Below are positions 13,039 to 18,427 of a DNA stretch of 64,000 bases, one piece after another. Under the pieces are notes generated by a model. The model was given only the letters and a program-made list of their open reading frames with translations, was not told the DNA's origin and did no database searches. Made by a program: the position numbers and the translations under genes. Source of the DNA: Corallococcus sp. AS-1-6 (lineage in GTDB: Bacteria; Myxococcota; Myxococcia; Myxococcales; Myxococcaceae); the NCBI RefSeq assembly GCF_020037015.1, contig NZ_JAIQDE010000018.1, positions 62,001-126,000 of the forward strand, in the 5' to 3' direction. Numbering within the stretch: position 1 is the stretch's first letter; every line of letters starts with the position of its first letter.

Positions 13039-13353
13039 TGCAACCTCCCCACACCCGCCAGACCCATGTGTCAGGCGTTGCGCACAAGGTGGGATCCGGG
13101 CAGGGAATCGGCAACGTGGGCTGAATTGTTGTGAACAGCGAGAGCGTCCTGCCGGGCAATCACCCGTCCCGTCCGGATGCCCAGCAGGCCTGACAAGCGC
13201 GCGAAATCCTTGGGGATTATGCATGCAATGTCAGGAGAGAACGGCTGGCGGTGTACGGAGCTTGCTTGCATCGGGGCGCTTCCGTCCCAAGGTTTCAGGC
13301 AAGGGACACCAAGGCGCGGACGGGGTTGGGCAGTCATGAGAGGAGACACGGAC
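13039..13353. other. 315-bp divergent intergenic region between the DedA and KGG genes
   Basis: No convincing ORF is present. It must hold promoters for both neighbours. On the plus strand, CTGACA (13190-13195) and TTATGC (13218-13223) are 22 bp apart, too far for a good sigma-70 site. GCATGCAATG around 13221 and the lower-GC stretch 13200-13230 mark the likely promoter area. A GAGAGGAG ribosome site at 13338-13345 serves the KGG gene. Confidence 0.4.
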
Positions 13354-13800
13354 ATGTCGGACAAGGACAACAAGGGCAGCATGACGGTGGCCGAGGCGGG
13401 TCGTAAGGGCGGAGAGACGGTCCGCAACGAGCGCGGTCGCGAGTTCTACGAGACCATCGGCCGCAAGGGCGGAGCGACGGTGAAGGCCGAGCGCGGACGC
13501 TCCTTCTACGAGGAGATCGGCCGCAAGGGCGGCGAGACCGTGAAGGCCGAGCGCGGCGCGAAGTTCTACGAGGAGATCGGCAAGAAGGGCGGCGATCGCG
13601 TCAAGGCCACCCGCGGACCGAACTTCTATGAGGAGATCGGCCGCAAGGGCGGGCAGAAGGTCAAGAAGCTGATCGAAGAGGGCAAGCGCGCCGCCCGCGC
13701 CGCCATGGAGGGCCAGGCCGGGAATGCCCCCGCGTCCGAGGGCACCTCCGCTCCGGCGACGCCGCCGGAGGAGCCCGCGCAGCCGGGCGGCAACGAGTAA
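13354..13800 (+). CDS. KGG-repeat stress-type protein
   Basis: The protein has 148 residues, starting at ATG 13354 with GAGAGGAG 8 nt upstream. It contains five tandem KGG motifs (R/K-K-G-G followed by a basic/acidic stretch and FYEEIG), each unit about 20 residues, between residues 15 and 110. The tail is Pro/Ala-rich. The family is the KGG/Em-like group (PF10685), hydrophilic glycine-rich proteins linked to general stress in bacteria such as E. coli YmdF/YciG. The molecular role is not established. The extended repeat array is longer than the two or three units usual in enterobacteria. Confidence 0.88.
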   Translation: MSDKDNKGSMTVAEAGRKGGETVRNERGREFYETIGRKGGATVKAERGRSFYEEIGRKGGETVKAERGAKFYEEIGKKGGDRVKATRGPNFYEEIGRKGGQKVKKLIEEGKRAARAAMEGQAGNAPASEGTSAPATPPEEPAQPGGNE

Positions 13801-13839: not shown

Positions 13840-14178
13840 GTGTACCTGGTCATCACGTTCCTCGAACAGGTGGAGACGACCGAGCGGGCGATCCGCCGGC
13901 TCCGGGAGTTCGGCATCCCGGAACCGCTGGTCATCCGAGCGCGCAGCGCCGCCGCGGCCCTGTCCGCGGAGGTCCCGGTGTTCGCCGGGCTGCGCAGCCT
14001 CGCGCTGGGCGCGGACGAGGACCGCGTCGTCCTCGTGAGCGTGCTGCCCTCCCTGCCGCAGGAGGAGCTGGACCGCATCATCCAGCGCGTGCAGTTGGAG
14101 ATGGACGCGGACGACCCGCCCATGGGCCGCCTGGTGGCCCTGCCTGTCCTGGCGGCGCCCACGCATCGGCGGGGATGA
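13840..14178 (+). CDS. PII-like protein
   Basis: The protein has 112 residues. Start GTG 13840 lies 6 nt after TATGAC (13828-13833). The beta-alpha-beta beginning (YLVITFLEQVETTERAIRRL) and the second half (VVLVSVLPSLPQEELDRI) fit a ferredoxin-like PII trimer fold. The conserved glutamine-signalling T-loop of GlnB is not apparent. It precedes two antiporter genes by 32 bp, so it probably regulates them by binding a nucleotide or other ligand. PII-like proteins linked to sodium transporters are known as a group; placement in that group is an inference from context. Confidence 0.62.
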   Translation: MYLVITFLEQVETTERAIRRLREFGIPEPLVIRARSAAAALSAEVPVFAGLRSLALGADEDRVVLVSVLPSLPQEELDRIIQRVQLEMDADDPPMGRLVALPVLAAPTHRRG

Positions 14179-14204
14179 CGCGCGGGGGCGCGCGGGTGTA
14201 AGCA
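14175..14204 (+). promoter_or_regulatory. Candidate promoter just before the first antiporter gene
   Basis: ATGACG (14175-14180), an 18-bp spacer and TAAGCA (14199-14204) are followed 6 nt later by GTG 14211. If used, the transcript would start at or within a base or two of the start codon. Confidence 0.35.
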
Positions 14205-14210
14205 CGCTGC

Positions 14211-15446
14211 GTGCAAGCGCTGCTCGTCTTCCTCATCGTCGCGGCGTTGTCGCTGCTCGCGTCCAGCCGGTCGCTCCTGGATCCGGGCCGCTTCCCGGCG
14301 CTGGCGCGGCTCGCGGCCAGCGGCCTCTTGTTCCTCATCTTCGGGGCCCTGCTGGGCCCGTCCCTGCTGGGCGTGCTCACCCCGCGCAACCTGGAGTCGC
14401 TGAGCCCGCTGGTGGCGCTGGGGCTGGGGACGGGCGGCGTGCTGTTGGGGCTCAACCTGGAGCCGCGCCTGCTGCGGCTGCTGCCCCGGCCCGTGTACGC
14501 GGCGGCGGTCGCGCAAGCGGGCACGGCGTTCCTCTTCGTCGCGCTGCCCCTGTCCGTCCCGCTGCTGTTGTCCATGGGCTTGAGGCCCATGATGGCGGTG
14601 GGCGCGGCGGCGCTGCTGGGCGCGGCGGCGAGCCTGTCCTCCGGCCACTTCGCGGTGCTGGGCTACCGCAACGGGCGGATGGAGCGCGCGCGGGGCCTGG
14701 GTGTGGCGCTGCTCACGATGATGGACGACGCGGTGGGCCTGGGCGTGCTCGCGCTGGGCCTGGTGCTGGGCGTCACCGGCAACGCGGCGGAGGGGCTGGG
14801 CCTGCTGTCGCTGGCGCTGCTGTTGGGCGTGGCGTGCGGGGCGCTGCTGGCGTTCCTCACGCATTCGCTGAAGGACCTGGCGGAGCAGACCACGGTGACG
14901 CTGGGCATGGTGGCGCTGGTGGGCGGCGCGGCGGCGTACCTGCGGCTGTCCTCGCTCCTGGCGGGCGTGGCCTGCGGCGCGACGCTGGCGCTGATGGGCG
15001 GACGCACGGCGGAGCGGGTGGCGCGGGCGCTCTCGCGCGTGGAGCGGCCCACGTACCTGGTGCTGGTGTTCCTGGTGGGCAGCCACATCCAGGCCCGCGA
15101 CGTGTCCGCCTGGGCGCTGTTGCCCGCGTTCGTGGGGCTGCGCTTCCTGGGCAAGGTGCTGGGGGGGAGGTTCGCGCAGCGGCTCACGGCGGGCGTGTTG
15201 GACCTGCCGCCGCGCTTCGGCTACGCGCTCATCTCCCAGGGCGGCCTGGCGCTGTGCCTGGTGGCCGAGTACGTGCTGCTGGTGCCCGGCTCGCTGTCCC
15301 AGCGGGTGCTGGACGTGGTGGCGGTGGGCGCGGTCGTCAACGAGATGCTCGCGCACGGGGCCTTCCGGCACGTGCTGGCCGCGGAGGCCCGGGCCACGGC
15401 CTCCCAGGCCACGCCGCCCGCCGGTGACGCGGGGGTGGCGGCGTGA
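14211..15446 (+). CDS. Cation:proton antiporter, CPA2-type (first of pair)
   Basis: The protein has 411 residues with about 12 hydrophobic helices, from GTG 14211. It has a Na_H_Exchanger domain. LLTMMDDAVGLGVLALG carries the acidic pair expected in the ion-binding helix, and a FLVGSHIQARD segment near residue 280 and FGYALISQGGLALCL near residue 340 are typical of CPA2 proteins. It is expected to exchange Na+ or K+ for H+ across the inner membrane. The last 4 nt overlap the second antiporter (GTGA). The presence of two non-identical antiporters and a PII-like gene in one operon suggests a regulated, possibly heteromeric, transporter. Confidence 0.85.
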   Translation: MQALLVFLIVAALSLLASSRSLLDPGRFPALARLAASGLLFLIFGALLGPSLLGVLTPRNLESLSPLVALGLGTGGVLLGLNLEPRLLRLLPRPVYAAAVAQAGTAFLFVALPLSVPLLLSMGLRPMMAVGAAALLGAAASLSSGHFAVLGYRNGRMERARGLGVALLTMMDDAVGLGVLALGLVLGVTGNAAEGLGLLSLALLLGVACGALLAFLTHSLKDLAEQTTVTLGMVALVGGAAAYLRLSSLLAGVACGATLALMGGRTAERVARALSRVERPTYLVLVFLVGSHIQARDVSAWALLPAFVGLRFLGKVLGGRFAQRLTAGVLDLPPRFGYALISQGGLALCLVAEYVLLVPGSLSQRVLDVVAVGAVVNEMLAHGAFRHVLAAEARATASQATPPAGDAGVAA

Positions 15447-16741
15447 AGGGGTCCATCTTCCGGTTGCTGCTGCTCGTGGCGCTCCTGGCGGCCATCACCC
15501 AGGCGCAGGTGGTGCGCGCGGACGCGGGCACGCCGGTGCTGCTGGCGGCGGGCGCGCTGCTTTTGTGCGGCCTGTTCGCGGGCAAGGTGGCCAAGGGCAT
15601 GGGCCTGCCGCGCCTCACCGGCTACCTGCTGGTGGGCGTGGCGGTGGGGCCGTACGCGCTGGGCTTCATCCCCAACGCGGGCGTGAAGGGGCTGGAGCTG
15701 GTGAAGGGGCTGGCGGTGAGCCTCATCGCGCTCGTCGCGGGCACGGAGCTGCACCTGGGGCTCATCCGCCGGGTGGGCGCGCGCGTGGCGCTGCTGTGCG
15801 CGGCGGTGTGCGGGGTGACGTTCGCGGTGTGCTTCGGGGCGACGTTCGCGCTCAAGCCCGTGCTGCCGTTCCTGACCCCCATGACGGTGCCGCAGGCGCT
15901 GGCGGTGAGCGCGCTGCTGTCCACGGTGGTGGTGTCGTTCTCCCCCACGGTGACCATCGCCATCGTGCAGGAGACGTCCGCGCGCGGCCCCTTCACGGAG
16001 TTCCTGATGGCGCTGGTCATCATCGGGGACCTGTTCGTGATGGTGGCCTTTGGCCTGGCGGCGGGCATCACCCGCGCGACGTTCGGCGACGGGCTGGACC
16101 TGCCCGCGCTGGTGGGCGGGGTGGGGTGGGAGCTGTTCGGCTCCGTGGCCGTGGGGTGCCTGCTGGCGGTGGCCATGCTCCTGTACATGCGGGGCGTCAA
16201 CCGCGAGCTGCCGCTGTTCCTCGTGGGGCTGTCGTTCGCGGCGGCCGAGGGCGGGGCGCGGCTGCACCTGTCGCCGCTCCTGGTGTCGCTGGCGGCCGGG
16301 GCGCTCATCGCGAACCTGGACGAGCGCGAGGGCCGGCGCATCCACCAGGCCATCAACCAGGCGGGCCTGCCGGTGTTCGCGCTCTTCTTCGCCGCGGCGG
16401 GCGCGGGGCTGAAGCTGGACGCGCTGGTGACCGTGGGGCCGGCGGCGCTGCTGCTCGTGGCGCTGCGCGGCCTGGCCATCTGGGGCGCGTGCCGCAGGTT
16501 CGCGCCCGCGGAGGACCCGCGCCTCAAGCAATACCTGTGGATGGGGCTCATCTCCCAGGCGGGCGTGACGTTCGGCCTGGCGGCGCTGGTGTCGCGCACC
16601 TTCCCGTCCTTCGGGCCGCAGGTGGAGGTGCTCATCGTCGCGATGATCACCGCGCACGAGCTGGTGGGGCCCGTCCTCACCCGGCGCGCGCTCCTGGGCA
16701 GTGGCGAAATCCGTGCGGAGGAGGCGGGCGGCGGCGCATAG
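15443..16741 (+). CDS. Cation:proton antiporter, CPA2-type (second of pair)
   Basis: The protein has 432 residues with 12-13 predicted helices. The Na_H_Exchanger signatures include GKVAKGMGLPRLTGYLLVG early, SLIALVAGTELHLGLIRR, FLMALVIIGDLFVMVAFG (acidic residue in the membrane) and YLWMGLISQAGVTFGLA near the end. It differs substantially from the preceding paralogue and retains an N-terminal signal-anchor-like helix. Translation is coupled through the 4-nt GTGA overlap. The probable role is Na+(K+)/H+ exchange under control of the PII-like protein. Confidence 0.85.
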   Translation: MKGSIFRLLLLVALLAAITQAQVVRADAGTPVLLAAGALLLCGLFAGKVAKGMGLPRLTGYLLVGVAVGPYALGFIPNAGVKGLELVKGLAVSLIALVAGTELHLGLIRRVGARVALLCAAVCGVTFAVCFGATFALKPVLPFLTPMTVPQALAVSALLSTVVVSFSPTVTIAIVQETSARGPFTEFLMALVIIGDLFVMVAFGLAAGITRATFGDGLDLPALVGGVGWELFGSVAVGCLLAVAMLLYMRGVNRELPLFLVGLSFAAAEGGARLHLSPLLVSLAAGALIANLDEREGRRIHQAINQAGLPVFALFFAAAGAGLKLDALVTVGPAALLLVALRGLAIWGACRRFAPAEDPRLKQYLWMGLISQAGVTFGLAALVSRTFPSFGPQVEVLIVAMITAHELVGPVLTRRALLGSGEIRAEEAGGGA

Positions 16742-17440: not shown

Positions 17441-18427
17441 TTGGCCGAGGGGGACCTACCAGCAACGCCTGTCGTGGATTCACCGGAGCGGGTGCCGGGC
17501 GCGCTCGCGCTGCTGGGCCTGTTGGTGCTCCGTCCCATTGATCTGCATTACCGGCTGCGCGAGGCGGGCATCCGCTCGCCGGCGGGCCGCATCGGGCAGT
17601 TGTGGCGGGAGCAGGCCGAGGGAGGCCGCGCCGCCGGGGCCTACGTGGCGCGGATGCTGCTCCTGCTCGTCGTGCTGTCGCCGACCCTCACGGTGCTGGC
17701 GGGGCTGGGGCTGCGGCTGATGGGCGTGCCGATGCGGGGCGTGTACCTGGTCTCCGCGGCGCTGTGCAGCGCGGTGGGGCTGGTGGTGGCGCTGGTGTCG
17801 GGGCTCGCGTCCGGGGTGCTGCTGGGCTCGCTGGCGAGCGTGTCCATGCTGGCGGGGCTGCACGCCACGGCGGGCGGCGCCTTCGGCCCGGAGCACGGCG
17901 GCGGGGCGGCGATGACGGTGGGCCTGTGCCTGGGCATCGTGTCCGGCCTGTCCGCGGGGAGCATTGGCGGCCTGTCCAGCGGGCGCGGTCCGTCCGTGCG
18001 CAACGTGCAGGTGGCGGCCATCGCGACGAGCCTGGTGCCCATGCTGGTGTGGAGCAGCGCCTCGACGGTGTCCTTCGCGGGCGCGGTGGCGGCGAGCGCG
18101 CTGGTGGCCTTCCTGACGTGCGCGTTCCGGCTGCCGTTCTACGCGCTGGAGGTGCTGGCGCAGGCGGTGGCGTACGCGGTGGAGCGCTTCACGGGGAGGC
18201 CCACGCTGCGCTGGGTGCCGGTGCGCCACCACAACCTGAGCTACCTGCCGCACCCGTTCCTCGGCCGCCACCTGGCGCTGGCGGTGCGCTCGCGGCCGGC
18301 GGAGGTGCTGGCGGTGGCGGACGCGTGCCTGCGCTCGCCGGGCAACATCCTGGTGGGCTGGCCCTGGGTGGTGGAGGCGCTGGAGCGCGCGCACGCCCAG
18401 GAGGCCTCGGCGGAGCCCCAGGCCTGA
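17441..18427 (+). CDS. Multi-spanning membrane protein, unknown function
   Basis: The protein has 328 residues from TTG 17441, 23 bp after the YciO-like gene and preceded by AGAGGGGG. A soluble N-terminus (RPIDLHYRLREAGIRSP) is followed by about six hydrophobic, Gly/Ala/Ser-rich helices (residues about 65-240). A cytosolic C-terminal part contains WVPVRHHNLSYLPHP, which is highly polar and could be a conserved loop. I recognise no family. The GGLSSG and GSLASVSMLAG glycine patterns recall small channels or scramblases but do not identify one. Confidence 0.7.
   Translation: MAEGDLPATPVVDSPERVPGALALLGLLVLRPIDLHYRLREAGIRSPAGRIGQLWREQAEGGRAAGAYVARMLLLLVVLSPTLTVLAGLGLRLMGVPMRGVYLVSAALCSAVGLVVALVSGLASGVLLGSLASVSMLAGLHATAGGAFGPEHGGGAAMTVGLCLGIVSGLSAGSIGGLSSGRGPSVRNVQVAAIATSLVPMLVWSSASTVSFAGAVAASALVAFLTCAFRLPFYALEVLAQAVAYAVERFTGRPTLRWVPVRHHNLSYLPHPFLGRHLALAVRSRPAEVLAVADACLRSPGNILVGWPWVVEALERAHAQEASAEPQA

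Follow-up and report, generated by a model that had tools for sequence, protein, structure and literature searches.

Why does Corallococcus sp. AS-1-6, a soil-dwelling predatory bacterium of the Myxococcaceae, encode a small PII-like protein and two different CPA2-type antiporters back to back, and do the three products work as one device? The genes lie on the plus strand of a 64,000-nucleotide stretch of contig NZ_JAIQDE010000018.1 (positions 62,001 to 126,000, assembly GCF_020037015.1), hereafter the window, to which all coordinates without a locus label refer. All three have GTG starts and encode the PII-like protein (13840-14178, 112 residues), assigned to its family through relatives and models; antiporter A (14211-15446, 411 residues), with a NapA-like predicted fold; and antiporter B (15443-16741, 432 residues), whose homology was established through relatives and a profile. 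The initial annotation described this layout correctly: the 112-residue open reading frame (ORF) ends 32 bp ahead of A, and the GTGA at 15443-15446 contains both the stop of A and the start of B, a 4-nt overlap. We consider the best explanation to be a two-subunit CPA2-type monovalent-cation/proton antiporter with a PII-like regulator, and we give it a little under an even chance of being right.

Mapping the genes across the phylum, we found A in 58 of the 60 loci examined (all but L064 and L089). In 55 of the 58 the next gene is B, in the same orientation, and the other three (L007, L016, and L093) end with the contig. These locus counts are not independent: 28 of the 58 A-bearing loci came from the query with the PII-like protein (27 loci plus the window, which is L028), L027/L105, L006/L106, and L016/L093 look like the same contigs, and some loci were drawn from overlapping genome sets. 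In a less biased subset of 20 regions picked by matches to A, 19 carry A and 18 of those carry B, the remaining one being cut by a contig end. Throughout L001-L028 the PII-like gene is followed by A (28/28) and in 26 also by B, with L007 and L016 breaking off inside A. When B served as bait, eight loci had no earlier call for A, and a wider A profile placed A directly upstream in six of them (L097, L098, L099, L100, L102, and L104). We counted A followed by B in 35 genera, spread over 11 families of the phylum with f1 among them, and all 76 genomes with a PII-like match, among the 195 of the phylum, also match the A profile. That the pair lies almost always side by side in the phylum suggests one two-part pump, where two identical halves are the usual design. 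Three loci have peculiarities: L061 (6754-9516) has a second B after the first, giving the order A, B, B; the A gene of genome G092 (L092:5837-7008) runs in two reading frames, through a frameshift or a sequencing error; and L024 is recorded as Comamonas sp. KCTC 72670 and holds a myxobacterial cluster of Myxococcus-like identity, so that the record is probably mislabelled or contaminated, the other loci found by the PII-like protein being labelled myxobacteria and having the same gene order.

The two antiporters also appear to share a history. In a 69-row tree a single clade (100/100) holds the tandem B proteins and leaves the single antiporters outside, and the subclades of A broadly mirror those of B, including groupings that cross families (L079, L080, L081, and L090; L084 and L085), the pattern to be expected of a pair moving together. 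Distances among A and among B proteins correlate (r 0.88), with A the more divergent (mean identity 28% versus 37%, lower in 655 of 666 pairs). Between the window and L001, the ratio of nonsynonymous to synonymous substitution rates (dN/dS) is about 0.10 for the PII-like gene, 0.26 for A, and 0.09 for B. We rejected the idea that A is a decaying gene, since reading frames are open and dN is below dS in three A and three B pairs from divergent lineages, including A proteins without an aspartate at the position of NapA D157; for L084/L085 the ratio is only about 0.45-0.5.

The assignment of A and B to CPA2-type exchangers comes through their relatives. Neither window protein gave a PF00999 row in Pfam at E up to 1 or a TIGR00932 (CPA2) row in NCBIfam, and when the PII-like, A, and B proteins were themselves used as queries, neither the family databases nor the PDB sequences returned a meaningful match. 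Relatives in f11, our label for a distant family of the same phylum, pass PF00999 with 62.6-83.6 bits against a cut-off of 26.2 (E 4e-17 for A, 4e-23 and 2e-23 for two B proteins), and the f11 B proteins reach 35.9 and 54.5 bits with TIGR00932, under its cut-off of 238.3. The A and B profiles align with each other over their full length at 99.8%. Among PDB sequences the B profile matches PaNhaP at 3e-6 and NapA at 4e-5; the A profile found no exchanger there, and for A fold comparison alone gave one. The model of A (predicted local distance difference test score, pLDDT, 86.4) has a NapA-type fold, aligning with NapA at Z 30.9 and a root-mean-square deviation of 4.5 (369 aligned residues, 19% identity), tied with plant SOS1 at Z 30.2, while Foldseek ranks SOS1 at E 6e-7 and NapA at E 2e-6.

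The PII-like protein of the window matched 0 Pfam families at E up to 1 and no NCBIfam family, and a match to PsbW was rejected as weak, short, and alanine-rich. A profile built from ten relatives, scored on at most 24 candidates per genome, matches 76 of the 195 genomes, seven of them in f11, and three f11 proteins that were scanned reach PF00543 at E 5e-4 to 1.3e-3 (19.5-20.7 bits against a cut-off of 25). Profile comparison joins the window family to the f11-type set at 98.1% and that set to canonical PII at 92%, against only 0.1% for the window family and canonical PII directly. PII proteins have a ferredoxin-like beta-alpha-beta-beta-alpha-beta fold and form trimers that bind nucleotides where the subunits meet. 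The AlphaFold model (pLDDT 82.9, weaker at residues 31-60) retrieved PII and PII-like chains in the Foldseek rows shown, PII and SbtB first, with only one row at E <0.001; a second structure aligner returned PII mixed with unrelated ferredoxin-like folds at Z 7.5-8.8. Judged by these profile links, the protein is PII-like by descent through intermediates, and by its modelled fold it probably is PII-like as well. Its alignment indicates that it is not a canonical PII, because GDGK and RIRTGE are absent. The labels "PII-like" and "CPA2" of the initial annotation thus hold through relatives and models, and direct family matches of the window proteins do not bear them out. Canonical PII (PF00543) is itself missing above the cut-off from 16/16 genomes of the genus, G000 included, one of the other 15 having a match at E 0.0066 only; in the phylum it is found above the cut-off in 101/195 genomes.

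Where A and B part company is at the ion site. NapA serves as the reference: its D157 is the primary ion-binding acidic residue and K305 pairs with D156, as described in passages of PMC11150392. With NapA as ruler, 58 rows of A (56 at K305) and 56 of B were readable. B has aspartate at the D157 position in 55/56 rows, the exception being L089, which lies outside any tandem; it is present in 10/10 additional B rows, among which two are probably duplicates. The residue before this aspartate is G, K, A, S, M, or N, and is D only in L073, a single antiporter. Window B retains the essential aspartate as G195-D196 (16025-16030) and has no lysine at the K305 position. A is less constant, with D at D156 in 47/58 rows, D at D157 in 41/58, and K at K305 in 50/56. 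Its departures follow lineage: six f11 loci have D-A or D-G, with L066 keeping D-D; six loci from f3 and f9 have E-E or E-Q; and L084-L088 have G-T, G-S, G-N, or C-S, with the eight commonest letters of each column listed and the N of L087 taken from its own row; misalignment is possible in the divergent A rows, and L092 contributes two partial ones. Further A rows read D-D, D-E, G-D, or S-E. Window A has D172-D173 (14724-14729) at the dyad and K315 (15153-15155) at K305, by alignment and codons. Since all three residues are retained, window A could itself be able to transport.

The PII-like gene is a less constant companion than B. Pairs of A and B without a PII-like match occur in L075-L088, L090, and L094. 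The A profile matches 98 genomes, some of these matches being B or other antiporters, and in 22 of the genomes the PII-like profile, limited to 24 candidates each, matches nothing. An automated flag for an upstream PII-like gene misses those on short contigs or overlapping A (f11, L068), which do appear in the gene maps of the loci. That the pair cannot do without the PII-like gene was rejected, since many A-B loci have no PII-like match. Because pairs without it are common, the sensor looks like an optional add-on. In six of seven f11 loci a PtsN-like gene stands directly upstream of the PII-like gene, whereas in L066 it is convergent and follows B. In L079, L080, L081, L090, L097-L099, and L102 the gene before A often encodes a large membrane protein, which in L080 and L090 alone exceeds the Pfam cut-off for MscS; in L097 and L099 the MscS match falls below it, and L079, L098, and L102 have no family match. 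The upstream partner is exchangeable among a PII-like protein, an EIIA-Ntr protein plus a PII-like protein, and an MscS-like protein.

Relatives of the PII-like protein also occur beside other membrane proteins. In L073, a Subdoligranulum plasmid (Bacillota) reached from both an f11 PII-like query and window B, a PII-like gene precedes a single CPA2-type antiporter. In L072 (3383-5351, Bacillota) a PII-like gene adjoins one for a 489-residue membrane protein, which we take to resemble the YfcC/ArcD type. L095 and L096, outside the phylum, have related antiporters and no PII-like match. Searches of plasmid sequences found nothing with the window PII-like protein or an f11 A protein as query. 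In L064 (5599-9227), one of the seven f11 loci with a PII-like gene, that gene stands between a PtsN-like gene and a small ORF, after which comes the gene of an SLC12-type cation-chloride transporter, and there the PII-like protein may partner another transporter class; the A-B pair of this genome lies at another place (L075), and no PII-like match adjoins it.

From gene order, homology, the predicted fold of A, residue patterns, and co-occurrence, we infer a heterodimer, with a division of labour, a docked regulator, a ligand, and a monovalent cation as substrate. A and B, homologous but not interchangeable, would most likely heterodimerise through the scaffold domains that form homodimers in NapA and KefC. 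B would be the constant transporting subunit, working through its one essential aspartate, and A its partner subunit, keeping the full D-D-K set in Myxococcaceae and having lost it in other lineages; because the site is lost in some lineages, the function common to all A proteins may be structural or regulatory. The PII-like protein would dock on the cytoplasmic face and switch the pair in response to a small molecule that may be an adenine nucleotide, with c-di-AMP (cyclic di-AMP) as a candidate; a c-di-AMP synthase match lies above the cut-off in the window's genome. In a stricter version the heterodimer would be obligate, B transporting and A serving as a lineage-dependent pseudo-antiporter that offers a docking and gating platform for exchangeable sensors. 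We hold this version only tentatively and think it somewhat doubtful; if it is true, a PII-type regulator would act on a transporter with two-fold, not three-fold, symmetry. The heteromeric or tandem device proposed in the initial annotation draws comparative support from the fixed A-B order, the mirrored trees, and the loss of the A site against the retention of the B aspartate. The proposed allosteric sensor is plausible, with members of the PII-like family beside cation transporters elsewhere and the pairing in L073, and is weakened by the missing canonical motifs and the optional gene.

Several observations weigh against a two-subunit antiporter under a PII-like regulator. Operon order together with shared ancestry can yield mirrored trees and distances correlated at r 0.88. 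The mirroring is also imperfect: the A of L066 is placed apart from the main body of A proteins, L027 and L091 branch in one order among the A proteins and in another among the B proteins, and the deep forks of A are partly open, with long branches in the A proteins of L079, L087, and L088 and in NapA. L101 and L103 carry B without an A detectable by the wider profile, and on their account the proposition that B never occurs without A was rejected. The complete D172-D173-K315 set in window A is what a working transporter would have. In L064 the PII-like gene adjoins, with one ORF between, an SLC12-type gene and not an A-B pair. The motifs GDGK and RIRTGE and the T-loop bind ATP and 2-oxoglutarate in canonical PII. 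Compared with canonical PII proteins of the same phylum, the PII-like alignment has neither of these two motifs nor the T-loop tyrosine, and shares the loop glycine alone. Finally, the CPA fold is dimeric in NapA and KefC. A review (passages of PMC10710835) describes PII control as confined to transporters capable of forming trimers.

The main alternative is that A and B are independent homodimeric antiporters of different ion preference or stoichiometry, co-transcribed for balance, with either or both as the target of the PII-like protein. The residues of the window proteins fit this reading well: with D172, D173, and K315 in A, and G195-D196 and no lysine at the K305 position in B, the chemistry of the two should differ. 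Both genes are under purifying selection, and uneven gene content such as the second B of L061 or the B genes without detectable A in L101 and L103 is readily accommodated. This arrangement sits poorly with L084-L088, where A has no acid at either dyad position and yet stays beside B, and with the A-then-B order in 55/58 loci, the other three being cut by contig ends. We regard it as possible, with the chances against it. A third possibility, in which A chiefly helps B to assemble or fold and stays outside transport and control, while the PII-like protein serves other targets and sits in the operon by descent, agrees with the faster evolution of A (28% versus 37% mean identity) and with PII-like genes missing at many A-B loci or lying beside an SLC12-type gene in L064, but is improbable given that the model of A keeps a full exchanger fold, that D-D-K is complete in the PII-linked Myxococcaceae, and that A comes directly after the PII-like gene in 28/28 of L001-L028, loci found by the PII-like query.

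Parts of the proposed two-subunit, PII-linked antiporter have precedents. Window A resembles NapA, a Na+/H+ antiporter of Thermus in CPA2, in the fold of its model, the D-D dyad, and the transmembrane (TM) lysine; however, NapA is a single-gene homodimer, and A is always followed by B where the sequence allows. B shares with the K+/H+ exchanger KefC of the KefC/KefB type a single aspartate at the NapA D157 position (passages of PMC11150392), but KefC has Q-D, a TM11 lysine, and a C-terminal RCK domain, whereas B has G-D, lacks the lysine there, and ends after the membrane domain (432 residues, no Pfam match). In SbtB-SbtA and GlnK-AmtB, a small PII-family protein is likewise encoded beside a transporter; here the target would be a CPA-fold antiporter pair and the canonical PII motifs are absent. 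UmpAB of Halomonas (DUF1538) resembles the proposed A-B pair in its two-component make-up: according to passages of PMC5484666, its paired homologous membrane proteins are active only when co-expressed and were co-immunoprecipitated. It belongs to an unrelated protein family, and those passages describe no PII-like partner. In E. coli the cytosolic signalling protein PtsN inhibits the K+/H+ antiporter YcgO, as PMC11808508 reports; in six of seven f11 loci a PtsN-like gene is found upstream of the PII-like gene. YcgO, however, is a single-gene CPA1 protein with a cytoplasmic regulatory region, unlike the A-B pair.

Regulation of transporters by the PII family is thus already known, as is a two-component antiporter of homologues in an unrelated family. 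Literature searches returned, among the matches listed, no PII-like protein with CPA2 antiporters and no heterodimeric CPA2 pair, which leaves absence from print unproven; a CPA2-type pair with exchangeable partners was likewise absent from those matches. If the proposal is true, PII-type control would extend to a transporter without three-fold symmetry, and if the pair joins one constant and one degenerating partner, it would be a natural test of each half of the dimer. A PII-like family scoring under the P-II cut-off of Pfam would also gain a suggested function, in a genus without canonical PII above the cut-off (16/16).

Around the three genes, a Sua5/YrdC gene lies downstream of B and, past it, a hydrophobic 328-residue ORF (17441-18427) has no family above the Pfam cut-off. 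A scan for sigma-70 promoters found none, which is weakly informative in a genome this GC-rich. The first gene of the conserved cluster encodes a KGG-repeat (stress-type) protein (13354-13800, plus strand; PF10685, PF00477), its longer ORF (13177-13800) matching PF10685 at E 2.9e-15 and PF00477 at E 5.6e-12 in the Pfam scan. The initial annotation does not mention this neighbour. It ends 39 bp before the PII-like gene, a gap from which it presumably belongs to the operon, and it is kept upstream in 28/28 of L001-L028. With this neighbour, the cluster may be tied to stress.
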